Assembly (NCBI GenBank): GCA_016218045.1
Contig: JACRFB010000040.1
Coordinates: 62,001 to 126,000 of the forward strand
Reading direction: 5' to 3'
Source: Ignavibacteriota bacterium
GTDB taxonomy: Bacteria > Bacteroidota > Ignavibacteria > SZUA-365
DNA: 64,000 nucleotides
Part shown: positions 14,917 through 60,415 of the stretch, piece by piece
Position numbering within the stretch: the first letter of the stretch is position 1
How the letters are laid out: every line of letters begins with the position of its first letter
Translations under genes and position numbers: made by a program
Notes under the pieces: model-generated
What the model was told of the DNA's origin: nothing
Databases searched by the model: none
What the model saw: the letters and a program-made list of their open reading frames with translations, nothing else

Positions 14917-16652
14917 TCCCCATCGACATACTCCGCCTGTTCGTGCTCATTGTGCTTCTCACGGCCGCGTGTATCCCTCTCGGCAGGTATATGGCACGCG
15001 TCTATTCGGGTTCGCGGACATTTCTCGATCCGCTGCTGCGCCCGATAGAGCGGGCCATTTACCGTGTCGCCGGTATTCGCGCGGAGGAAGAACACGACTG
15101 GAAATGGAATGCGACGGCCATGCTCGTGATCAATGCCGCCGGGTACGTCGTACTCTACGCGCTGCTTCGGATGCAGGACATGCTCCCGTTCAATCCCCAA
15201 TCGCTCCCCGGCGTTGCGGCCGACACGGCGTTTAATACCGCCGTAAGTTTCGTGTCCAACACAAACTGGCAGTCGTACAGCGGAGAGACAACGATGAGTT
15301 ATCTCTCGCAGATGTTTGGACTCACCGTACAGAACTTCCTCTCTGCGGGCACGGGCATGGCGGTTGCCGCGCTGTGTATCCGCGGCCTCGCGCGCCACTC
15401 CACCACGCTGCTGGGAAATTTCTGGGTGGATCTGACGCGCAGCATTCTGTACATCCTCTTGCCCCTTTCCATGTGCCTCGCCCTTGTACTGGTGTCGCAG
15501 GGTGTGATTCAGAATTTTGATGCGCCCGTGCCGGCGACTTCTCTTGAAACCGCACACAGGGCCGGTGCAGCGGATGGCGCGTCGGGTCTTGTGCCGATGG
15601 GTCCGGCAGCGTCGCAGATAGCGATTAAGCAACTTGGCACAAACGGGGGCGGATTTTTTAACACAAACGCGTCGCACCCGTTCGAAAATCCCACGCCGCT
15701 GTCGAATCTGCTGCAGATGCTTGCCATTCTCCTGCTCCCCGCGGCCCTCTGTTTCACCTTTGGATCGATGGTCCGCGATTCACGGCAGGGAACGGCGCTG
15801 TACATCGCGATGCTTGCGATTCTGCTCTGTGCATCCGCAGGAGTCCTTGTGGTGGAAGAACAGGGCAATCCCGTATTCATGCGTCTCGGAGTCGATCAGA
15901 CGTCCACTTCCATACAATGCGGCGGAAACATGGAAGGGAAGGAGGTGCGATTCGGCGCAGGCAACTCCGCGTTGTGGGCGGTGTTCACGACGGCCGCGTC
16001 GAACGGATCCGTCAACTCCATGCACGATTCTTTCATGCCCTTGGGAGGCGGCATCCTGATGTTCCTCATGCAGCTCGGCGAGGTTGTGTTCGGGGGAGTC
16101 GGTTCCGGACTCTACGGAATGTTCGTGTTTGTGATCGTGGCGGTCTTTGTCGCGGGTTTGCTTGTCGGCCGCACGCCGGAGTATCTCGGACACAAGATCG
16201 ACGCCTTCGACATGAAGATGTCGTCGCTGCTCATCCTGATCATGCCGATAACCGTGCTCGGATTGACGGCCTTGGCAGTGTCGTGCGACGCGGGGCGTAC
16301 AGCGATATTTAACGGCGGGCCGCACGGCTTCAGCGAAGTGCTGTATGCGTTCACCTCGACGGGAAACAACAACGGGAGCGCATTCGCGGGCCTCGGTGCG
16401 AACACTCCGTTCTACAACATCAGCGGCGGCATCGCCATGCTGATCGGCCGTTATTGGCTCGCCGTTCCCGCGCTCGCCCTCGCGGGTTCCCTCGCCGGCA
16501 AACAGCACACTCCGCCGGGACAGGGCACTCTTCCCACACACACGCCGTTGTTCATCGGCTGGCTCCTTGCGATCGTGCTCCTTGTCGGCGCATTGAATTT
16601 TATTCCGGCACTGGCTCTCGGCCCCATTGCAGAACACCTTCTGCTTCCCTGA
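14913..16652 (+). CDS. kdpA: K+-transporting ATPase subunit A (channel-like)
   Basis: 579 residues, about ten membrane helices. The selectivity-filter loops of this K+-channel-related subunit are recognisable: FVSNTNWQSYSGE, LGTNGGGFFNTNASHPFENP, TTAASNGSVNSMHDSF and STGNNNGSAFAGL. The start at 14913 overlaps the kdpF stop. It is the ion-binding and translocating subunit of the high-affinity K+ pump. Confidence 0.98.
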   Translation: MIPIDILRLFVLIVLLTAACIPLGRYMARVYSGSRTFLDPLLRPIERAIYRVAGIRAEEEHDWKWNATAMLVINAAGYVVLYALLRMQDMLPFNPQSLPGVAADTAFNTAVSFVSNTNWQSYSGETTMSYLSQMFGLTVQNFLSAGTGMAVAALCIRGLARHSTTLLGNFWVDLTRSILYILLPLSMCLALVLVSQGVIQNFDAPVPATSLETAHRAGAADGASGLVPMGPAASQIAIKQLGTNGGGFFNTNASHPFENPTPLSNLLQMLAILLLPAALCFTFGSMVRDSRQGTALYIAMLAILLCASAGVLVVEEQGNPVFMRLGVDQTSTSIQCGGNMEGKEVRFGAGNSALWAVFTTAASNGSVNSMHDSFMPLGGGILMFLMQLGEVVFGGVGSGLYGMFVFVIVAVFVAGLLVGRTPEYLGHKIDAFDMKMSSLLILIMPITVLGLTALAVSCDAGRTAIFNGGPHGFSEVLYAFTSTGNNNGSAFAGLGANTPFYNISGGIAMLIGRYWLAVPALALAGSLAGKQHTPPGQGTLPTHTPLFIGWLLAIVLLVGALNFIPALALGPIAEHLLLP

Positions 16653-16664
16653 CAGGTGACTCAC

Positions 16665-18767
16665 ATGACACAGCATTCGAGACCCGACACCCGCCCCTCC
16701 GTCGTATTCAACCGCGGCCTGTTGACAGGTGCGCTGATAGACGCGCTGCGGAAACTGGATCCGCGACTGATGATGCGCAATCCCGTCATGTTTGTTGTGG
16801 AGGTGGGAGCCCTGTTCACAACCGTCCTCTGGGTGCAGGCGCTCGCAGGCCACGGCGAAGATGCTTCATCGTTCAGCGGCGCGGTGAGTCTCTGGTTATG
16901 GTTCACCGTCTATTTCGCTAACATCGCCGAAGCGATCGCGGAGGGACGTGGCAGGGCCCAGGCCCACGCACTGCGCGCGAGCCGGCGTGAAGCGTCGGCG
17001 GTGCTGCTCGCTTCACCCGATCCGGGCGCGGAACGACGGGAGGTTTCGTCGAGCATGTTGTCCCGCGGCGATATCGTGATGGTGGAAGCCGGGGGCATGA
17101 TACCGGCGGACGGTGAAGTGATAGACGGGGTGGCATCAGTGGACGAAAGTGCCATCACGGGAGAAAGCGCGCCGGTCATACGCGAGGCGGGAGGCGACCG
17201 CAGCGCCGTGACCGGCGGCACCACGGTGCTGTCGGACTGGCTGATCGTGTCCGTTACCGCGGAACCGGGTTCGGGCTTCATCGACAGGATGATCCGGCTT
17301 ATCGAGGGGGCGCGCAGGCAGAAAACACCCAATGAAATCGCACTCAACATACTGCTCGCCGCGGTCACCATCATTTTTCTTGTGGTCTGTGCGACACTTC
17401 TTCCCTTCTCGCAGTACAGCGTGACGGCGATGGGCAGGGGCGAACCCGTCACCTTCACGGTTCTGATCGCCCTTCTGGTCTGTCTCATTCCCACAACCAT
17501 CGGAGGCCTGCTCTCAGCGATCGGCATCGCGGGCATGGACCGCATGCTCCGTCACAACATCATCGCCACATCGGGCCGCGCAGTCGAGGCCGCCGGCGAT
17601 GTCGACGTGCTGCTTCTCGACAAAACGGGCACCATCACACTCGGAAACCGCATGGCCACCGAATTTGTGTGCGCCCCCGGTGTGACATCCGAGCGCCTCG
17701 CGGACGCCGCCCAGCTTGCGTCGCTGGCCGATGAAACTCCCGAGGGACGGTCCATCGTCGTGCTCGCGAAGGAACGGTACGGTCTGCGTGCGCGGGACAT
17801 TCAGGAGTCGCATCTCCAATTCATCCCATTCTCGGCGCACACACGTATGAGTGGTGTGGATATCGTGGGCGCCGAATACAGGCCGACCCGAAGTATACGC
17901 AAGGGCTCGGCAGGAGCCATCCGCTCATTTGTCGCAGGCAACGGCGGCACGTTCCCGCAGCAGATCGATGCCCGGGTACAGGATGTAAGCCGCAACGGCG
18001 AGACGCCGCTCGTTGTGGCGGAAGATGCCGAAGTACTCGGGGTGATCCGGCTGAAGGACATCGTCAAGGGCGGCATCAAGGAGCGATTCACGCGGCTGCG
18101 GGCGATGGGCATCAAGACCGTGATGATCACAGGCGATAACGCCCTGACGGCGGCGGCCATCGCCGCCGAGGCCGGAGTCGACGACTTCCTCGCGGAGGCG
18201 ACCCCGGAGGACAAACTGACGCTGATTCGCAAACACCAAAGCGGCGGACACCTCGTTGCCATGAGCGGGGATGGCACCAACGACGCGCCCGCGCTTGCGC
18301 AAGCCGACGTGGCAGTCGCGATGAACACCGGCACACAGGCCGCGCGCGAAGCGGCAAACATGGTGGATCTCGACAGCAATCCCACAAAGCTTCTGGAGAT
18401 CGTCGAGATCGGCAAACAGCTCCTCATGACACGCGGAGCACTGACGACTTTCAGTCTGTCGAATGACCTCGCGAAGTACTTTGCCATCATTCCCGCGGCT
18501 TTTGTCGGCACCTTTCCCGCGCTGAAGGCGCTCAACATCATGGGCCTGGCGACCCCACACAGCGCGATACTCTCGGCGGTGATCTTCAACGCCCTCATCA
18601 TCGTCGCACTCATCCCTCTTGCGCTGCGCGGCATCCGCTACTCTCCCGCGGATGCCGCAACGCTGCTGCGGCGCAATCTCCTGATCTATGGCGTGGGCGG
18701 ACTGTTCGTGCCGTTCATCGGCATCAAACTCATCGACGTGTTTCTCGTCGCGATAGGTGCGTCATGA
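16665..18767 (+). CDS. kdpB: K+-transporting P-type ATPase subunit B
   Basis: 700 residues from the ATG at 16665 (AGGTGA upstream; a GTG at 16656 is an alternative). The actuator motif TGESAPV, the phosphorylation site DKTGTITLG near residue 319, MITGDN and the hinge [19 protein letters not shown] are intact, followed by [20 protein letters not shown] typical of KdpB. It hydrolyses ATP to drive K+ through KdpA. Its stop overlaps the start of the next gene (ATGA). Confidence 0.98.
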
Positions 18768-27080: not shown

Positions 27081-27131
27081 TTCCCACTCCCTACCCCCTA
27101 CTCCCTCCTCCCCACTCCCTCCTCCCTCCTG
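27081..27131. repeat. Polypyrimidine CCCTCCTCCC tract (family E)
   Basis: A run of CCCTACTCCC/CCCTCCTCCC words containing only pyrimidines and a few A. It overlaps the 3' end of truA, encoding its last ten residues and its stop (CTA at 27098-27100). A similar C/T-only tract lies at about 61010-61050. Confidence 0.6.
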
Positions 27132-37879: not shown

Positions 37880-37976
37880 ACCTGTTATGTCTCCAATCGT
37901 CTCAAGAATCGAGAAATATACGGATTCTCCACGTCTGCTCGGTTGCGCTCTCATATAAACACGTAGACACGGAGCT

Positions 37977-38237
37977 GTCTCCCGTATCCTGAATCCTAAC
38001 ACCCGTGTGAGGATACAGGAGAAAGGAGACAGGAGGAAGGAACTTGGCCGATGCCTGTCTCCTGTCTCCCGCATCCTGAATCCTCACACCCGCGTGGGGA
38101 TACAGGAGAACGGAGACAGAAGGAAGGAACTTGGCCGATGCCTGTCTCCTGTCTCCCGTATCCTGAATCCTAACACCCGTGTGAGGATACAGGAGAAAGG
38201 AGACAGGAGGAATGAGTTTACACGGTGCATGTCTCCT
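37977..38237. repeat. Three tandem 87-bp palindromic repeats (family A)
   Basis: Units begin at 37977, 38064 and 38151, each opening with GTCTCCCGTATCCTGAATCC or a near copy. Each holds a core palindrome of the type TCCTaACAC-CC-GTGTgAGGA and a second arm ending GGAGACAGGAGG. A whole unit can therefore fold into a long imperfect hairpin. A degenerate fourth piece (GTCTCCTGAATCCTG) lies at 38231-38262. Related copies lie at 57664-57880 and 59983-60355. Confidence 0.85.
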
Positions 38238-38274
38238 GAATCCTGTACCCTGTCTCCTCACTCACACTCCATAG

Positions 38275-38323
38275 GTCGATCTACCATCTACCTATCTACC
38301 AACTACCATCTACCCATCTACCA
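38275..38323. repeat. CTACCATCTACC repeat (family B) next to family A
   Basis: GATCTACCATCTACCTATC followed by CTACCAACTACCATCTACCC, the same words as at 1279-1320 and in the two composites flanking the kelch gene. It ends about 55 bp before prfA. A TATATTAA box at 38335-38342 may belong to the prfA promoter. Confidence 0.7.
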
Positions 38324-39462: not shown

Positions 39463-40310
39463 ACGCCGCGTCTGTTGCACACATGCACATCGGCGCCGGC
39501 GCTCCGCTGGCGCTCATCGCGGGGCCCTGCGTGGTCGAAAGCCGCGACATGACGCTCCGCACCGCCGAGACGCTCCGCCTCGTCGCCGAGCGGTTCGGAC
39601 TCCCGCTTGTCTTCAAATCCTCGTATCGCAAAGCGAATCGGACCAGCTTGTCCGGATTTACCGGCCTCGGCATGGATGAAGCGCTTGCTGTTCTCGCCGA
39701 AGTGCGCAGCACCTTCGGCCTCCCCGTGGTCACCGACATTCACCGCGAGGACGAGGCGACTTCCGCGGCCGAGGTCGCGGACATGCTGCAGATTCCGGCC
39801 TTCCTGTCGCGGCAGACCGATCTGCTTCTGGCAGCGGGCCGCACGGGCAAGGCGGTGAACATCAAGAAGGGCCAGTTCCTCGCGCCGGGCGACATGCGCC
39901 ACGCCGCTGCCAAGGTGGCCTCGACCGGCAACACGAACATCCTTCTCTGCGAGCGTGGTGTCAGCTTCGGCTATCACGACCTCGTGGTCGACATGCGTTC
40001 ACTCGTGATCATGCGCTCGCTTGGTTATCCCGTGGTGATGGACGCAACACACGCGGTGCAGGTGCCCAGCCAGGGCGAGGCCTCGGGCGGTCGTCCGGAA
40101 TTTATTCTTCCGCTGGCGCGCGCGGCCGCGGCCGTGGGTATCGACGCGATCTTTGTCGAGACACACCCGGATCCGCGCAACGCGCTCAGCGACGCGGCCA
40201 GCCAGTTGCCGCTGTCGTACATCGACGTGCTCCTCGCGCAGGTTGTGGCCGTCGACCGCGCGGCGCGCGAGACCGGCGCGCTGGTGCAGGCGGGAGACTT
40301 CACCGAGTGA
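39459..40310 (+). CDS. kdsA: 3-deoxy-8-phosphooctulonate synthase (Kdo8P synthase)
   Basis: 283 residues. It condenses arabinose-5-phosphate with PEP. Family motifs: LALIAGPCVVESRDM, VFKSSYRKANRTS, GLGMDEALAVL, FLSRQTDLLLAA, NIKKGQFLAPGDM, CERGVSFGYHDLVVDMRSL, MDATHAVQVPS and FVETHPDP. An Asn-to-Cys choice defining metal dependence was not resolved by eye. It overlaps prfA and kdsC by 4 bases each. It shows that the organism makes Kdo, hence LPS. Confidence 0.97.
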   Translation: MNAASVAHMHIGAGAPLALIAGPCVVESRDMTLRTAETLRLVAERFGLPLVFKSSYRKANRTSLSGFTGLGMDEALAVLAEVRSTFGLPVVTDIHREDEATSAAEVADMLQIPAFLSRQTDLLLAAGRTGKAVNIKKGQFLAPGDMRHAAAKVASTGNTNILLCERGVSFGYHDLVVDMRSLVIMRSLGYPVVMDATHAVQVPSQGEASGGRPEFILPLARAAAAVGIDAIFVETHPDPRNALSDAASQLPLSYIDVLLAQVVAVDRAARETGALVQAGDFTE

Positions 40311-40828
40311 GACGCGAAAACCCCGCGGCGAAACACGACGCGCGCCTGCGCGACGTGCGCGCCTTTCTCTTCGATGTCGACGGCGTCCTCACCGTGGGTG
40401 GTGTCTCGTTCACGTCACAGAGTTTCGAGACCAAGACTTTTCACGTCGCTGACGCACACGGCCTGCGGCTGGCCGTCGACTTCGGCATACGCGTCGGTTT
40501 CATCACCGGCTCGCAGTCGCATATCATCGAGCAGCGCGCGCGCGAACTGGGCATCACCGATCTGTACCAGGGATCACTCAACAAGCTCGACGCCTACGAG
40601 GATTTTCGCGCGCTGTACAATCTCCGCGACGAGGAGATCGCCTACATGGGCGACTCCATGCTCGACGTGCCCGTGCTCCGGCGTGTCGGCTTCTCCTGCG
40701 CCCCGCGCAACGCGCACTCCGGCGTCCGTATCGCCGTCCACTACGTCACCCGCGCCGACGGCGGCGCCGGCGCCGTTCGCGAAGTGGTCGACATGCTCCT
40801 GCGGGCCAATGGGCAGGCAGGGGTGTAA
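40307..40828 (+). CDS. kdsC: 3-deoxy-D-manno-octulosonate 8-phosphate phosphatase (HAD)
   Basis: 173 residues from a GTG overlapping the kdsA stop (GTGA). The HAD motifs are AFLFDVDGVLTVG (nucleophile Asp), FITGSQS, NKLDAY with the conserved Lys, and AYMGDSMLDVPVL. It dephosphorylates the KdsA product to free Kdo. The three-gene order prfA-kdsA-kdsC indicates translational coupling of the Kdo enzymes. Confidence 0.93.
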   Translation: MRRENPAAKHDARLRDVRAFLFDVDGVLTVGGVSFTSQSFETKTFHVADAHGLRLAVDFGIRVGFITGSQSHIIEQRARELGITDLYQGSLNKLDAYEDFRALYNLRDEEIAYMGDSMLDVPVLRRVGFSCAPRNAHSGVRIAVHYVTRADGGAGAVREVVDMLLRANGQAGV

Positions 40829-40837
40829 CGACTCCGC

Positions 40838-40985
40838 CACGTCGAATGTGGAAAGTGGAATGTTGAACGTGGAAAGTGGAATGTGGAAAGTAGCAAAGTA
40901 AAAGAAGACCGCGAATCGCGGACGCCTTTCCACTTTGCTACCTTGCTGCGTTGCTACTTTGCTACGTTGCGACCTTTTACTTTCC
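40838..40985. repeat. GTGGAAAGTAGC repeat with central hairpin (family C), copy left of 41006-42985
   Basis: Direct words GTGGAAAGTGGAATGTGG and GTAGCAAAGTAAAAGAAG, a near-palindromic centre CCGCGAATCGCGG (40909-40921), then the mirrored arm CTTTCCACTTTGCTACC. Bases 40862-40947 are identical to 43147-43232 on the other side of the next gene. It sits between convergent kdsC and the T9SS gene and may also terminate both. Confidence 0.85.
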
Positions 40986-41005
40986 GCACTGCCACATCTA
41001 CCCGG

Positions 41006-42985
41006 TCAACGTATAGCAACCACCATCGCCCGCTGTAGCGTTCGTCCGCCGGCGATCAGTCGCCAGAAATAGATACCGGGAGAAGTGTGTCCCAAAACGA
41101 TATGTGCCGTGTGGGAACCACGGGTCTGCACCGCATCCACTGCCACCTGTACTTCACGGCCAAGCGCGTCATACAGCGCGAGGTGTACGTGTGTGTCGGC
41201 GGGCACGGAGTAGGCGATGTCGGTATGTGTGACGGCGGGATTCGGGTGATTCTGTTCGAGCGAGAAATCATCGGCCATGCCGAGAAGCACCGCCACGCTG
41301 TGCGAGTACGTCGCCGATCCGTCGCTGTCGATCTGCCGCAGACGGTACGCGGCTCCGCCCGACGTGTGATGCATCGATCCGATCACATCCGTGTACGAAT
41401 ACCGCGAGACCGATGACGTGCTGCCACGCCCGGGCACGAAGCCGATGCCGCTCCAATCCTCTCCCGATGCAAACCGGCGCTGCACCTCGAAACCGAGATT
41501 GTTCTGTTCGTTATCGGTGCTCCAGTGGAGCGCGATCACGCCCTCGTTCATGTCCGCAGTGAAGCGTGTCACATTCACCGGAAGCCAGCAGCCGAATCCG
41601 GGGGCCATGCCGCGATTCCTGTACGTCGCGATGCCGTTATTCGCCATCAGGACAAACGCATACAGGCAATCAGGTTCGTTGCCAAACCACTGGATGCCGT
41701 GGTCCACATCGGATATATATGCGTTGTTGCCGATGGAATGATACACGTTCTGGCCGAGATACGGTGTATTCCCAATAACGCGGGACGCCGATCCGATCGC
41801 CGAGACGTCCATGACACGGGCGCGTGTGTTGAGATTGGGCGGGTTCGTCGGATTCGTGGGATACGCATCCGCGCAAAGTAGAAATCGTTGGTTCGCATTT
41901 TTCGGATTCGCGAAAAACGAAAGAGGACCCGCAGGACCCGTGCCGGTGATCGGATCGGATGACAGCGTGTCGAGTATCGTCACAGGGACCGACGTGCTCG
42001 TTATTGCACCCGACCATCGGAGGACGCGGCTGCCCGTGGAAGTATATATATCGTCCGTGATGGCATTTCCTGTTACCGCGAGTCCGTTTCCACCGGTGTT
42101 GGGCGCATACGTCCATAGGCGCCGCGCGATGCGGTATTCGAGTTTCCTGCCGAGTCCGTCGGACACGTTGAGTGTTGTATCACGCTGCAGTATCAGGATC
42201 TCATTGTCCTGTCCTCCATCCTTTATACCCGTGATATACACTTGTGTTTTGTCCACCACCTTGAAGGCGCCGAGTGTTGCATCGTACACTCGTTCGCGTT
42301 TCCCCGTCACTTCGAAAGCGTCGCCCCAGCGCGACCACGACATGTCGCTGTTGCCCAGGGAGCCGGTGTTTGCGCGCGTGAGGTCCAGCGTCACGTACAT
42401 ACGACGCGGTGTGGACCACGGGGTGTCCCAGCGGTAGATGCGCAACGGACCCTGATACAGGTAGGTGGAGTCACAATTCGGCGGAGGACCGGGGAAGCAG
42501 ATCCCGAACAGAGGGGCCACGAGATTGCAAGCCCAGATGCGGCCCTCGTCGTCGACATCGATTTTATAGAGCGACATCTGTCCGTTCCCATATCCTCCGT
42601 AGTATGCGTTCGGCCACCCCTTGCCTGTCACAACCGTATCGAGAGGTACGGGCAGCACACCTCCCGCGCCCGTCACCGCATCACGCCCGACGGATGTGAC
42701 CGGCAGCAATGTCATCGGATCGAGGATGCGTATCGTGGGCCGCGGCACTCCATTGCTTCCCACCGTGACCAGAGCAGGGTTCACAACATAGAGAAGTTTG
42801 CGCACCGAATCGTACGCCAGTCCCGTGTACTGCCGCTGCCCCGCCATCCAACCGTATGTCGGATGCGAAACCGAAGCGGGCTGCAACACCGTCGCCAAGT
42901 CCTCCCAGTCGATGTTCCCCTGCGACTGCGCGACACTGCCACAACACAAACACGCAGCGAACACCATCAGAATCCGACGTATCAT
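41006..42985 (-). CDS. Secreted beta-propeller-like protein with T9SS sorting domain, unknown function
   Basis: 659 residues. Signal peptide MIRRILMVFAACLCCGSVAQS. Residues 60-460 contain repeated segments of the kind RQYTGLAYDSVRKLLYVVN, SLYKIDVDDEGRIWACNLV and GNAITDDIYTSTGSRVLRW, suggesting a propeller-like fold. A domain WLPVNVTRFTADMNEGVIALHWSTD follows, which commonly precedes T9SS tails, then NHPNPAVTHTDIAYSV, LALYDALGREVQVAVD and PGIYFWRLIAGG. The DNA is visibly less G+C-rich than its neighbours. It is bracketed by family C repeats on both sides. Confidence 0.8.
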   Translation of the reverse strand: MIRRILMVFAACLCCGSVAQSQGNIDWEDLATVLQPASVSHPTYGWMAGQRQYTGLAYDSVRKLLYVVNPALVTVGSNGVPRPTIRILDPMTLLPVTSVGRDAVTGAGGVLPVPLDTVVTGKGWPNAYYGGYGNGQMSLYKIDVDDEGRIWACNLVAPLFGICFPGPPPNCDSTYLYQGPLRIYRWDTPWSTPRRMYVTLDLTRANTGSLGNSDMSWSRWGDAFEVTGKRERVYDATLGAFKVVDKTQVYITGIKDGGQDNEILILQRDTTLNVSDGLGRKLEYRIARRLWTYAPNTGGNGLAVTGNAITDDIYTSTGSRVLRWSGAITSTSVPVTILDTLSSDPITGTGPAGPLSFFANPKNANQRFLLCADAYPTNPTNPPNLNTRARVMDVSAIGSASRVIGNTPYLGQNVYHSIGNNAYISDVDHGIQWFGNEPDCLYAFVLMANNGIATYRNRGMAPGFGCWLPVNVTRFTADMNEGVIALHWSTDNEQNNLGFEVQRRFASGEDWSGIGFVPGRGSTSSVSRYSYTDVIGSMHHTSGGAAYRLRQIDSDGSATYSHSVAVLLGMADDFSLEQNHPNPAVTHTDIAYSVPADTHVHLALYDALGREVQVAVDAVQTRGSHTAHIVLGHTSPGIYFWRLIAGGRTLQRAMVVAIR

Positions 42986-43047
42986 ACCACCTCCGGAATG
43001 TGCGTATGCTAGAAGGACAAACCCGCTTCGCGGGAAGTTACACTGCG

Positions 43048-43350
43048 GATGAAGAACGTAGAAAGTAGCAAGGTGGAAAGTAGCAAAGTAAAAGAAGACC
43101 GCGAGCCGGGGCGCCTTTCTACGTTGCTACGTTGCTACTTTGCTACGTTGAACGTGGAAAGTGGAATGTGGAAAGTAGCAAAGTAAAAGAAGACCGCGAA
43201 TCGCGGACGCCTTTCCACTTTGCTACCTTGCTACTTTGCTACGTTGAACGTGGAAAGTGGAATGTGGAAAGTAGCAAAGTAAAAGAAGATCGCGAGCCGT
43301 TCGCGCCTTTCCACTTTGCTACCTTGCTACTTTGCTACTTTGCTACGTGT
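43048..43350. repeat. Family C repeats, three units of about 96 bp, right of 41006-42985
   Basis: Three units; the second and third begin at 43147 and 43243. Each has GAAAGTAGCAAAGTAAAAG, a GC-rich centre, then CTTTCCACTTTGCTACC. The centres differ in sequence: CCGCGAATCGCGG in one, CGCGAGCCGTTCGCG in another. Both still pair, which suggests that the hairpin matters. They fill most of the gap between the T9SS gene start and the aminotransferase stop. Confidence 0.85.
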
Positions 43351-43356
43351 AACGTG

Positions 43357-44475
43357 TCACGCGACACCGATTGCCTCCACCGCGGCGTCGATCTCGTCGG
43401 TGGTGTTGTAGAAGTGCGGCGCGATGCGGATGTGACCGCTGCGCGCAGAGACGGTGATACCGCGTGTGTGCAGCGTTTCGGCGACGGCATCGGCGCGGTC
43501 GTGGCGGAAGGTGACTATGCCCGCCCGGCGGGCCGGATCGGCGGGGGTGAGCAGCGGAAAGCCCTTTTCCGCGATGCGTTCGTACGCATGATTCGCGAGG
43601 GCGCGCACGCTGCGCTCCACGTTCTCCATGCCGACGCGCTGGAAGAGAGAATAGGACCCGTGTGTCCCGAATATGCCGACGGTGTTGTAGGTGCCGTTCT
43701 CGTAGCGGCGCGCATCGTCGCGCGGCGCGAGGCGGTAGTCGAAGAAGTCCCACGCGTGTCCCACGCTGAGCCAGCCGAAATGCGCCTGCGCGATGCGCTC
43801 CTGCGCGCGTTCGCTGGCGTAGATCACCGCCACACCCTGCGGTGCGAGCTGCCACTTCTGCACGCCCGCCGAAAGGAAATCCACCGGCGTCTCGCGCAGG
43901 TCGAGGCGCAGCGCGCCGAGTCCCTGTATCGCGTCGATGGACAGCAGCACGTTGCGCGCGGCGCAGAGATCCGACAGCGCCTTGAGGTCGATGGTATAGC
44001 CCGAGAGGAACTGCACCCAACTGAGCGCCACCAGCACCGTGCGCGGACCGATGGCGCGCTCGACGTCCGCCAGCTCGATCACGCCGTTGCGCTGCGGGAC
44101 AAAGTCGAGTTCCACACCGTGCCGCGTGGCGTTCAGGAAAGGGTACACGTTCGCGGGGAATTCCTGCTCGGCCAGCACGATGCGATCGCCCGGCTTCCAG
44201 GCAAGGCCGCTCGCAAGCACGTTGAGCCCTTCGGACGTATTCTGCACAAACGCGACCCGTTCCGGCGCGCATCCGAGCATGTCGCCGGCGAGCACACGTG
44301 TCTCGCCCAGCACGCGCAGGAAGGATTGATAGATCTCGATGTCGCCCCGCACAAACACCTCGGTGGCGCGCCGCACCGCGTCCTCGACGTAGGTGGACCA
44401 CGGTCCGGTCGCAGCGTGATTCAGGTAGATGCGGCCGGATTCGAGATAGGGGAACAGTGAACGAACGTCTTGCAT
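43357..44475 (-). CDS. Class V aminotransferase (cysteine desulfurase / isopenicillin-N-epimerase-like)
   Basis: 372 residues from the ATG at 44475 (GAAGG upstream); longer starts at 44538 are less likely. PLP fold type I class V features: IYLNHAATGPWS, ERVAFVQNTSEGLNVLASG, VSWVQFLSGYTIDLKAL-type region and SIDAIQGLGAL. The Schiff-base Lys is in FLSAGVQKWQLAPQGVAVIY. It lacks the Cys loop expected in NifS/IscS desulfurases, so it is more likely an epimerase/kynureninase-like enzyme of unknown substrate. Confidence 0.88.
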   Translation of the reverse strand: MQDVRSLFPYLESGRIYLNHAATGPWSTYVEDAVRRATEVFVRGDIEIYQSFLRVLGETRVLAGDMLGCAPERVAFVQNTSEGLNVLASGLAWKPGDRIVLAEQEFPANVYPFLNATRHGVELDFVPQRNGVIELADVERAIGPRTVLVALSWVQFLSGYTIDLKALSDLCAARNVLLSIDAIQGLGALRLDLRETPVDFLSAGVQKWQLAPQGVAVIYASERAQERIAQAHFGWLSVGHAWDFFDYRLAPRDDARRYENGTYNTVGIFGTHGSYSLFQRVGMENVERSVRALANHAYERIAEKGFPLLTPADPARRAGIVTFRHDRADAVAETLHTRGITVSARSGHIRIAPHFYNTTDEIDAAVEAIGVA

Positions 44476-44629
44476 GGTATTCGCCTTCAACGTGAAGCGC
44501 GAAATATCCGGCGCATACGCGCCAGATCCCAATGCCATCTTGTATCAGGCAGCGTCCACACCAGAACGGCCACTTCATAGGTTGATGTCGCTAAGCGGCC
44601 TCAGTCGCTTCCACGGCCATGTGTCCATT

Positions 44630-44780
44630 CGTCTGATCGTCTAACCGTCTGATCGTCTAACCGTCTGATCGTCTAACCGTCTGATCGTCTAACCGTCTGA
44701 TCGTCTACCCGTCTGATCGTCTAATCGTCTGATCGTCTAACCGTCTGATCGTCTAACCGTCTGATCGTCTAACCGTCTAC
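44630..44780. repeat. CGTCTRAY octamer array (family D)
   Basis: Nineteen consecutive octamers alternating CGTCTGAT and CGTCTAAC (a 16-bp period), with two variants (CGTCTACC, CGTCTAAT). It fills the gap between the aminotransferase start and the aquaporin stop. The last unit provides the TAG stop of the aquaporin gene. No spacers, so it is not a CRISPR array. Confidence 0.9.
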
Positions 44781-45460
44781 CGTCTCCCGATAAAACGATA
44801 CACCATCGCACCAAGAACCGCACCTACAATAGGAGCAATCCAGAACAACCAGAGCTGCGCCACCGCCCAGCCGCCGACAAAAAGAGCGACACCGGTGCTG
44901 CGCGCGGGATTGACCGAGGTGTTTGTGACGGGAATGCTGATGAGGTGGATGAGTGTGAGACCGAGGCCGATGGCGACCGGCGCGAAACCTTTCGGCGCGC
45001 GTTCATCCGTCGCTCCGAGGATGATGAGGAGGAACATCATGGTCATGACGATTTCTGTCACCAGCGCCGCAAGAAGGGAATACTGCCCGGGCGAATGTTC
45101 CGCAAAGCCGTTCGACGCGAAGCCGCCCGCGGTCGTGAACCCCGCCTGCCCGCTTGCGATCACCAGAAGAACGCCGCCCGCGGCGATGGCACCGAGCACC
45201 TGTGCGGCGATGTAGGGGACGAGTTCCTTCGCCGGGAAACGTCCGGCGGACCACAGGCCGATCGAGACGGCCGGATTGAGATGGCATCCGGAAATGTGTC
45301 CGATGGCATAGGCCATCGTGAGCACTGTCAGACCAAAGGCAAGCGAGACGCCCAGGAGTCCGATGCCCACTGCGGGGAATGCGGCCGCGAGCACCGCACT
45401 ACCACATCCGCCGAGAACGAGCCAGAATGTTCCGAAAAACTCCGCGCCATACTTCTGCAT
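44777..45460 (-). CDS. aqpZ: Aquaporin Z-type water channel
   Basis: 227 residues from the ATG at 45460 (GAAGAGG upstream). Six membrane helices and both NPA boxes: [13 protein letters not shown] and [14 protein letters not shown]. The ar/R constriction Arg (in NPARS) and the preceding Thr/Ser match AqpZ-type orthodox aquaporins. It moves water across the inner membrane. Its stop codon lies in the octamer array. Confidence 0.94.
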
Positions 45461-46036: not shown

Positions 46037-46107
46037 TTAATAGGCCGGGCCGGGAATCGGGCAGGAGAAACGCTCCAGCAGGCAGCCCCCGGTACTCTCT
46101 ACCCGAC

Positions 46108-46460
46108 GTGTGTCGGCTTCGACACGTTCAGACTGACACAAGCATGCTGTGCAACCCGCGGGACCGGCACAGCGTGCAATTTCGACCCCGCGCCGCGCGT
46201 TTGGTACACCTCCCTTCCCTCCGTTCCTCCTGTGTGCTTTTCTCACGTACTCCCTTCCCCGCGTGTGTCGGCTTCGACACGTTCAGACTGACACAAGCAT
46301 GCTGTGCAACCCGCGGGACCGGCACAGCGTGCAATAGCGACCCCGCGCCGCGCGTTTGGTACACCTCCCTTCCCTCCGTTCCTCCTGTGTGCTTTTCTCA
46401 CGTACTCCCTTCCCCGCGTGTGTCGGCTTCGACACGTTCAGCCCGACACACGCGCGGTAG
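46108..46460. repeat. 155-bp direct repeat with two hairpins, 2.3 copies
   Basis: Copies begin at 46108, 46263 and 46418 (partial). Copies 1 and 2 differ by only two bases. Each contains GTGTCG-GCTT-CGACAC and a second stem GCATGCTGTGC (46142-46152) with GCACAGCGTGC (46167-46177). The truncated third copy ends in an enlarged perfect 12-bp stem (46415-46426 with 46443-46454) just downstream of the LamG gene stop. No coding region is supported here. Confidence 0.85.
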
Positions 46461-57663: not shown

Positions 57664-57880
57664 GCCGGAGTCGACACAGTGGCCGTCTCCTGACTCCTCA
57701 CACGAGTGTTAGGAGTCAGGAGGAAGGAGACAGGAGGAACGACTTGTCTCGGTGGCCGTCTCCTGACTCCTGTCTCCTGTATCCTTACGCACATGGAGCA
57801 GATCGATCTACTGATCTACCCATCTACCAACTACCCATCTACCGGGTACCAAATCCTCACACGAGCGTGAGGAGTCAGGA
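57664..57880. repeat. Composite family A + family B repeat, left of the kelch gene
   Basis: Contains GTCTCCTGACTCCTCACACG, its complement with GTGTTAGGAGTCAGG, GGAGACAGGAGGAACGA, and CTACCCATCTACCAACTACC. Bases 57711-57880 align without gaps to 60118-60287 (offset 2407), with a few substitutions before 57779 and near the right end. The central 85 bases are practically identical. It separates convergent phoA and kelch genes and may act as terminator for both. Confidence 0.85.
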
Positions 57881-57902
57881 TACACAGACAAAAGGTTTGA
57901 GT

Positions 57903-59843
57903 TTATTCTACCACACGTCGGAAGATCAACGCCAGACCGTCTTTGCACGCGTACAACCAATACCCACGCCAGGGAACGCCCTTGTCACCTGCATCGACGT
58001 AATACTCGCGGCATTTGCTATCAGGTTGAGTGGCGTAGACAGATGGATCGAAATATTTCATGGGTAGCTTTATCCATCCCTTTCGTTTTGCATCGTCGAG
58101 AGCCCGTTCCTCCCCGCCTTCGCGGATGCGGGCATGCGTAGAGAGCGGGCCGCCGAACTCGAATGGCCAACCGACGCAGTTCCATCCCTGTCGAAGCGAA
58201 ACGACTGCACTATCGTGCCGATATCCTGCCGCGCGAATCGTTCGAGATTGGGGATGAGGATTCCACAGCCAGACACCCTGGGAGGGGCGTAATGTGTCAC
58301 ACGTACCATATTGCGCATTCGTTCCATACTGTACCGCATGAACAGGATCAACAGCCAGATCGACACAAAAATATCCGCATGGAGACGCGTCATGCGGTGT
58401 GACAGCAGGTGCGAGCATGGTCCACCCAGCCGATGACGTAGTAGCGGAAACGAGAAAAGGAAGCGCCGGTTCGAGTCGCCACAGGTCGCGATATACTCCC
58501 GGCGACGTGCCGCCCATAAACCAGAATATGCCCTCATCGTCGCGCGTGCTCGCGAATTTGGAGAATGAACGAGGTGTGTTTCGTGCATCACGGACTCCCT
58601 TCACTCCGCTATACCCGGCGGCGCCTTGTGTGAGAGATCCCTTCAACCACACCCATTGGCGGGATTCAGGGAGAAAGGCCCACACATCGTTCCTCGACGT
58701 TGCTCCACCCTGTTTTTCGATCGCACCCCCAAAAAGCCAGAACCTGCCTCCGTCATCCATCCAACAAGAGAATGCGCTTCGGGCACCGGGTGTGTTCTCC
58801 TTTGCCGGCCATCCCTGCGTGCCGCCGTGTACCGGTGAATCCGGTTCCGGGGATCCATGGACCCATTCCCATTGACCACGTGTAATGTCGAAACGCCAAA
58901 GGTCGTTGCATGAGGCCATTTTCTCCACCGTCACTCTTTCGCTACCCCCGTACAACCACACGTCCCCGGTTTCATCAACCGCAATACCGGTGAGTATCCG
59001 ACCACCCGGGTGTCGATCCGTGGCTCCATAGGAGGCCCGAGTGTTTATGGTTTTTGTACCAGCCATCCACGTCCATCGCTGTGTCGAAGGATCGTACATC
59101 CAGAGATCTGCTAACGTCCCTTTGACGGTTGTGTCAGCCATTCCATATCCACCGTACATCCAGAATCGTCCGCGTGAATCCGTCGCACATGCGGCGCTTG
59201 TGCGGGCTCCCGGGAATGCGGTATCGGACGCAACACCGATAGGACCGTATCTACCTTTGACATACTTCTTGCTGGACCCACCCATCCACGTCCAATTTCC
59301 GCCACCTGCTTGTGAGTACATCCACAGGTCATTGAGAGCGCCGGTATCACTAAGCGAATCCAAGCCCCAGCCGCCAAAAAGCCACAAACGACCGGTATGA
59401 TCACGCCACGCCGCAGATCCACCCCGCGCGCCGGGTGTATTCTCACGACTGGGCGTACCCATGACGCCGTATCGCGGTGGTGCTCCAGCCGAGTCCGCAC
59501 CCGACATCCATGTCCACTCGCTTGTGCGCGCATCCCATCGCCAGAGGTCGTTCCCGTTTCCACCCGGTGGTGTCGCGTCGAAGATCAAACCGCCGAATAT
59601 CCACATGTTTCCGGTTGTATCGGCCCACATTGCGCAATCGTGCCGCGAGCCGGGGATGTTGTCCTTATGAGGCACGCCGAGCGTTCCGAAACGACCCGGT
59701 TTATTCGACTGCAGATCTCCGTGCATCCAGGTCCACATGGGGACGCCGTACCGTTCCTGTGAGAACGCTGTTGGAACATGGACACAAGCCATCATGACGA
59801 ACATCCATACTACACATTCAGACTTCACCCTGAAATACACCAT
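57903..59843 (-). CDS. Exported kelch-repeat protein
   Basis: 646 residues. Signal peptide CVVWMFVMMACVHVPTAFSQ. Six or so kelch blades recur with GRxGxxGVPxxxNxPGxR, then DxxGxxWxFGG and NDLWxWD..xxWTWM: for example MWIFGGLIFDATPPGGNGND, RLWLFGGWGLDS, RFWMYGGYGMADTT, DVWLYGGSERVT, RFWLFGGAIEKQ, IFWFMGGTSPGVYRD. The C-terminal 180 residues have GWTMLAPAV, GWNCVGWPFEF and RGYWLYACKDG, and there is no T9SS tail. The DNA is visibly lower in G+C than the surroundings and the gene is bracketed by direct repeats. Confidence 0.88.
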   Translation of the reverse strand: MVYFRVKSECVVWMFVMMACVHVPTAFSQERYGVPMWTWMHGDLQSNKPGRFGTLGVPHKDNIPGSRHDCAMWADTTGNMWIFGGLIFDATPPGGNGNDLWRWDARTSEWTWMSGADSAGAPPRYGVMGTPSRENTPGARGGSAAWRDHTGRLWLFGGWGLDSLSDTGALNDLWMYSQAGGGNWTWMGGSSKKYVKGRYGPIGVASDTAFPGARTSAACATDSRGRFWMYGGYGMADTTVKGTLADLWMYDPSTQRWTWMAGTKTINTRASYGATDRHPGGRILTGIAVDETGDVWLYGGSERVTVEKMASCNDLWRFDITRGQWEWVHGSPEPDSPVHGGTQGWPAKENTPGARSAFSCWMDDGGRFWLFGGAIEKQGGATSRNDVWAFLPESRQWVWLKGSLTQGAAGYSGVKGVRDARNTPRSFSKFASTRDDEGIFWFMGGTSPGVYRDLWRLEPALPFLVSATTSSAGWTMLAPAVTPHDASPCGYFCVDLAVDPVHAVQYGTNAQYGTCDTLRPSQGVWLWNPHPQSRTIRAAGYRHDSAVVSLRQGWNCVGWPFEFGGPLSTHARIREGGEERALDDAKRKGWIKLPMKYFDPSVYATQPDSKCREYYVDAGDKGVPWRGYWLYACKDGLALIFRRVVE

Positions 59844-59898
59844 GGATCACCCCGTTGTTCGAGAGGTTCATCGCAGGAAAAACTATGAGTGTGACGGG

Positions 59899-59906
59899 AG
59901 AATATA
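59899..59906 (-). promoter_or_regulatory. Candidate -7 element of the kelch gene promoter
   Basis: TATATTCT on the minus strand, about 55 bases before the start codon, in the small A+T-rich gap between the gene and the right-hand repeat block. The upstream partner is TTT and not TTG, so it is a weak match. Confidence 0.3.
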
Positions 59907-59982
59907 TCACACCTGTCTATCCGAAAAAAAACGGCTATCATTTGTCCAATTATCGACAGGGAAAACGAATTGACACTGTGGC

Positions 59983-60355
<373 letters not shown>

Positions 60356-60415
60356 CACAACGGAGCAGACCCTACGCCCGAAGCGTCGAAACGGACAACA
60401 GAATCGATCCCACCC

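Follow-up and report, generated by a model that had tools for sequence, protein, structure and literature searches.

Between a kdsC-type phosphatase gene and a class V aminotransferase gene, the window (the whole stretch of 64,000 nucleotides of the Ignavibacteriota genome that was analysed) contains a single gene for a secreted protein, flanked on both sides by copies of an intergenic hairpin element (Table 1). The C-terminal type A sorting domain of the 659-aa protein scored 33.1 bits with TIGR04183 (cut-off 23), and Pfam PF18962 gave 22.4 bits, under its 27-bit cut-off. The sequence-only reading of this DNA had placed one secreted-protein gene between the repeats and had called it lower in G+C. 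The gene and its T9SS tail are borne out, and the G+C (0.591) is indeed below that of the immediate neighbours (0.639 and 0.656), but it is not unusual: in the sample, 32% of the other genes and 27% of the T9SS genes had a G+C of 0.591 or less. A foreign origin of the gene on the basis of G+C was rejected, the value being ordinary.

Table 1. Genes and repeat copies at the locus (window positions).
Feature	Positions	Strand	Basis
kdsC-type phosphatase, left neighbour, part of the conserved prfA-kdsA-kdsC block	40307-40828	+	TIGR01670, 154 bits; synteny in relatives
Extra heptamer units, GTGGAAA/GTGGAAT type, outside R1	40838-40861		Sequence
R1, left copy of the hairpin element, complete unit plus an additional 8-nt unit	40862-40969		Identity to R3; predicted fold
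659-aa secreted protein with T9SS type A sorting tail	41006-42985	-	TIGR04183; homologues; tree
R2, first of the right-hand tandem trio	43054-43146		Sequence comparison; predicted fold
R3, equal to R1 except for one 8-nt unit	43147-43242		Sequence comparison; predicted fold
R4, third right-hand tandem copy	43243-43342		Sequence comparison; predicted fold
Class V aminotransferase / cysteine desulfurase-like, right neighbour	43357-44538	-	PF00266, 164.8 bits

Positions 40862-40947 and 43147-43232 are exactly identical over 86 bp, in the same orientation and at an offset of 2285, as had been claimed. Once one 8-nt gap is allowed, the match between R1 and R3 continues to the end of the unit, with no substitutions over the unit. 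Overlooked by the earlier reading was that the right flank consists of three tandem copies (R2-R4, 43054-43342) with a period of about 96 bp. Most differences between R4 and R3 fall in the apical hairpin, which keeps its hairpin form; R2 departs from R1 and R3 mostly in the apical hairpin too, with additional substitutions in the units. At the left end, TRF reported a period-7 tandem array (40844-40891), and R1 with its flank (40845-40970) is predicted to form a near-continuous hairpin. Compared with dinucleotide shuffles, the RNA fold z scores of the + strand were -5.17 for R1 with its flank, -3.88 for R2, -3.57 for R3 and -2.93 for R4; the corresponding z scores for single-stranded DNA were -6.26, -3.96, -4.31 and -3.74.

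R1 and R2-R4 belong to a large population of intergenic hairpin elements built from 7- or 8-nt units. When R3 (96 bp) was used as the query, 65 places in the same genome matched; identity was 88-100% among the four local copies and 81% for the best full-length match elsewhere, the matches of higher identity elsewhere being short pieces only. This element (family C) had no match in 11 other genomes of the family. Two position-chosen samples, each of 40 stretches and together covering 1.59 Mb, yielded 61 period-7 and 48 period-8 arrays, against 0 to 2 arrays for each of the periods 4 to 6 and 9 to 13. Larger periods such as 14 and 16 are multiples of 7 or 8. An order-2 random control contained no arrays, the lone count per period, in the real and control columns alike, stemming from one run of N. 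The array units are varied (GTGGAAA, GTAGCAAA, AGGAGAC, CTACCAT, GGGAGTA, GACAGCGG, CGTCTGAT, GTAAAGGG and others). A relative assembled as one contig (G004) had 6 period-7 and 2 period-8 arrays in 400 kb, and loci from other phyla had 3 and 1, respectively, in 333 kb. A reverse transcriptase was rejected as the generator of the units, the genome having no PF00078 match.

Most array clusters are intergenic (64 of 73 in samples 1 and 2; 35 of 38 in sample 1 plus the window). Among gaps of at least 150 bp, arrays were enriched in convergent gaps (14/43, vs 33/222 of the other gaps; P=0.009), and 14 of 69 divergent gaps held arrays. R1-R4 share the features of the intergenic heptamer/octamer class, namely 7- or 8-nt units, a mostly intergenic location and inverted pairing able to form stem-loops. 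The repeats around a kelch-protein gene further along the window, which the sequence-only reading had taken for an unrelated and independent family, are of the same kind: both sets are hairpin arrays of 7- or 8-nt units and represent one architectural class. Arrays in the window with a unit of 7, 8 or a multiple include those at 1278-1318, 27082-27130, 37975-38323, 44630-44785 and 57685-60369. A 155-bp tandem repeat (2.3 copies, 96%) occupies 46092-46450, inside an intergenic gap of 955 bp.

Are copies that flank one gene more alike than copies far apart? We compared all intergenic gaps of at least 60 bp with one another in 2.01 Mb, with genes called by a codon-usage script. Of 302 gap pairs that flank one gene, 11 were similar, 9 reached at least 80 bits and 6 at least 150 bits, whereas only 39 of 196,432 distant pairs (separated by over 20 kb or located on another contig) reached at least 150 bits (P ~1e-10). 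Near-identical pairs of the same family are therefore about 100-fold commoner around one gene than at a distance, and the proposal that flanking copies are no more alike than distant ones, named in advance as the outcome that would count against a special arrangement, does not hold (6/302 vs 39/196,432). At 80 bits or more, direct pairs outnumbered inverted pairs 8 to 1 around one gene but only 123 to 112 among distant pairs. Thus, the elements are dispersed in both orientations, while local twins are direct. Direct duplicates also occur inside the same gap. A cassette-like rule is not borne out when arrays of any family are counted: in sample 1, only 2 genes out of 502 had arrays on both sides, which is not above expectation (P=0.23; mean of the permutations 0.89). 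Taken by itself, the window did show bracketing above chance (2 of 37 genes, P=0.02), although the strict array detector missed R1 and the genes counted were others.

The layout shared with the kelch unit is confirmed: 57685-57880 and 60092-60287 are direct repeats of 196 bp (93% identity) around a gene for a kelch-repeat protein (57903-59843, PF24681). This protein had no full-length homologue in the 11 genomes of the family, and synteny of the unit was set aside as uninformative because, wherever a relative carries both of its neighbours, these are on separate contigs or a long way from each other. With a bracket defined as a direct same-family pair of at least 80 bits around a single gene, in addition to the two in the window, seven more were found in about 2.0 Mb (L142, L080, L091, L104 and L112 in the first data; L184 and L185 in the second sample). 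Tandem paralogues as the cause of a bracket held for L185 only, where the neighbour is 77% identical over 405 aa, and L185 was left out of the count that follows. At L142, a Y1 transposase gene missed by the gene caller lies between two right-hand copies, the best-scoring one (16806-16986) beyond it and a nearer related one (15393-15629) before it.

By the NCBIfam cut-off, 6 of the 8 bracketed genes have a T9SS tail, the kelch protein and L104 being the two without. Among isolated genes (both gaps at least 100 bp), 41 of 186 were scored as T9SS with a purpose-built tail profile (P=0.0016), and with the window excluded, 5 of 6 bracketed genes were T9SS (P=0.002). There are few bracketed genes, and the set was drawn up once the first data had been seen; in the second sample, for which the prediction was fixed before analysis, L184 was the sole clean added case. 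Arrays as a class showed no association with T9SS genes, being present in 16 of 74 gaps adjoining a T9SS gene and in 31 of 191 others (P=0.37). Overall, the sequence-only interpretation is supported in part.

Homologues of the 659-aa gene with conserved neighbours were found in the relatives G001, G002, G003 and G006 and on contig C10 of the same genome (G000). The gene in the window is a diverged paralogue of the C10 copy (G000:C10:6722-8716), which lies at the conserved site. In the tree, the window copy clustered with the C10 and G003 homologues (support 97/94), but its branch is long (1.53 changes per column) and the program flags its placement as unsure. The gene kdsC follows kdsA in 9 of the 10 relatives where kdsA was found. 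In G003, the nearest relative, the order is prfA-kdsA-aminotransferase, with no kdsC, T9SS gene or repeats between kdsA and the aminotransferase gene; in G001, G002 and G006, the three relatives checked, the aminotransferase gene is about 21 to 22 kb from kdsA. The absence of kdsC beside kdsA at this G003 locus (L093, G003:C89) is unlike the other relatives seen. G003 was rejected as a clean empty site because kdsC is absent there too, and a deletion in G003 is for this reason equally possible as an insertion in the lineage of the window. It follows that the gene is an old duplicate at a dispersed site, which either came to this position in the lineage of the window or disappeared from G003. 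The repeats are much more recent than the divergence of the gene from its paralogue.

We consider it rather likely that hairpin elements were recently copied locally, in direct orientation, on either side of a resident T9SS gene, and that the locus is not what a site-specific cassette insertion left behind. R1 and R3 would then owe their near-identity to this copying, around a gene that was already present. The copying may have proceeded by template switching during replication, by unequal exchange or by gene conversion within the repeat tracts, routes that are not distinguishable here; slippage-prone units of 7 or 8 nt together with palindromes would favour template switching. Three points count against local copying. 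A recently imported, already diverged gene would likewise pair an old gene with young repeats; the T9SS share of the bracketed genes (6/8) exceeds what copying alone predicts; and the adjacency of kdsA and the aminotransferase gene in G003 is what an insertion here would predict. The sequence-only reading had proposed a cassette-like unit. As a rival explanation, a recombinational gene cassette would mean that the T9SS gene arrived with a single element on a circle or donor fragment, which crossed over with a resident element to give a direct element-gene-element order. Such a cassette would account for the nearly uniform direct orientation of local same-family pairs (8 to 1), the T9SS excess among bracketed genes, the G003 site without gene or repeat, and a dispersed duplicate whose homologue on C10 keeps the conserved place. 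However, the gene is an old paralogue of ordinary G+C (branch 1.53), yet R1 and R3 are without a substitution, so that the origin as a mobile cassette is unsupported; kdsC is missing in G003 as well, and no empty site holding a single element was found. We regard the cassette as unlikely.

The predicted hairpins are stable and arrays are enriched in convergent gaps (P=0.009), as might be expected if monocistronic genes for secreted proteins retained the elements at each end as insulators or bidirectional terminators. This function would leave the near-identity of flanking copies and the expansion of periods 7 and 8 unexplained, and divergent gaps hold arrays too (14/69), so it has only a slight chance of being the explanation. 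That dispersed elements came to flank one gene by chance is very improbable: although the elements are numerous and clustered, and genes flanked on both sides by arrays irrespective of family are no more frequent than expected, the roughly 100-fold excess of same-family near-identical flanking pairs over distant ones refutes chance for the near-identity. Equally improbable is an assembly artefact in which one element was placed twice. The genome is a draft of 72 contigs and the repeat is close in size to a short read, but R1 has an 8-nt unit and unique flanks absent from R3, and comparable pairs occur on several contigs.

Irrespective of how the repeats arose, 86 bp of identity at a distance of 2.3 kb should suffice for RecA-type deletion or duplication, and since the gene lies between perfect direct repeats of this length, homologous recombination would be expected to raise the rate at which it is deleted or duplicated. 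Loss or amplification of the gene is thus probably facilitated by the repeats. Dispensable surface-cargo genes would best tolerate such loss or duplication, which may give the T9SS excess among brackets; the excess that copying leaves over could reflect either this tolerance or selection for variable surface proteins. A broader proposal, that the hairpin elements form a recombinational turnover system in which direct pairs around single T9SS-cargo genes let each gene be excised, amplified or swapped by homologous exchange between elements, diversifying the secretome, seems to us distinctly unlikely. If genes were gained and lost through the repeats in this way, short non-coding intergenic arrays would drive secretome variation in the lineage.

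In Xanthomonas and Nostoc, heptameric repeats (GGGNATC / GGGGA(T/C)T) are tandem and mostly non-coding, as are the 7-nt arrays here, and for Xanthomonas 70 and 75 cases are given in which two arrays form an inverted pair with stem-loop potential (Rehm et al. 2015, PMC4692102). That study follows one G-rich unit type (PMC4692102), whereas many unrelated 7- and 8-nt units occur here, and near-identical direct copies around single genes are a feature of this genome. TAACTGA and other heptamers form intergenic assemblages in some Bacteroidetes, and Elizabethkingia has nearly identical intergenic regions (MacGregor 2015, PMC4679880). In contrast to the arrays here, a single unit predominates in that system and, in the main genome studied, usually lies immediately before start codons, and the sections of that account drawn on here describe no hairpin units bracketing T9SS genes (PMC4679880). 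Geobacter metallireducens has multicopy repeats in opposite-strand pairs, each with four or five 7- or 8-nt units in tandem, which resemble the arrays here but were read as regulator binding sites, with IS elements near some (PMC2700814). A role of heptamer arrays in rearrangement has been suspected in other bacteria (PMC4692102, PMC4679880, PMC2700814). Heptamer arrays, their intergenic bias and their inverted pairing are therefore already in print in these sources (PMC4692102, PMC4679880, PMC2700814). What is new is that one genome combines numerous families of 7- and 8-nt units, and that T9SS genes are flanked by direct twins; searches of the open-licence literature returned no account of T9SS genes bracketed by hairpin pairs in direct orientation. 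Why the unit length is uniformly 7 or 8 despite unrelated sequences is a question that this genome makes tractable.

Integron attC sites carry the inverted core boxes RYYYAAC...GTTRRRY. By eye, this inverted pair is absent from R1-R4, where GTTGAAC at the unit start is direct, not inverted. As with integron gene cassettes and their attC sites (PMC2727003), single genes lie between structured sites in direct order, but the elements here are dispersed genome-wide and include tandem empty copies. The general integrase model PF00589 had 5 matches in the genome. REP/REPIN sequences with RAYT are likewise multicopy intergenic hairpins, but they are palindromes of 20-40 bp with a GTAG or CGTC tag, whereas the elements here are about 100 nt with tandem arms of 7- or 8-nt units (PMC3116915, PMC3733652). 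PF01797, a model that covers Y1 transposases generally, gave 5 matches in the genome, 4 over the cut-off. The repeats surrounding one Y1 transposase gene (L236, G000:C50:337-672), GCCCGAGCGCAGCGAAGGGCG-type palindromes with ACGTGTT and GTAGCAA units interspersed, gave on inspection no sign of family C as substrate. Another Y1 (TnpA-like) transposase gene (L234:1396-1914, G000:C46:36065-36400) lies amid short palindromes, outside which are AGGAGAC/CTACC hairpin elements in direct orientation.
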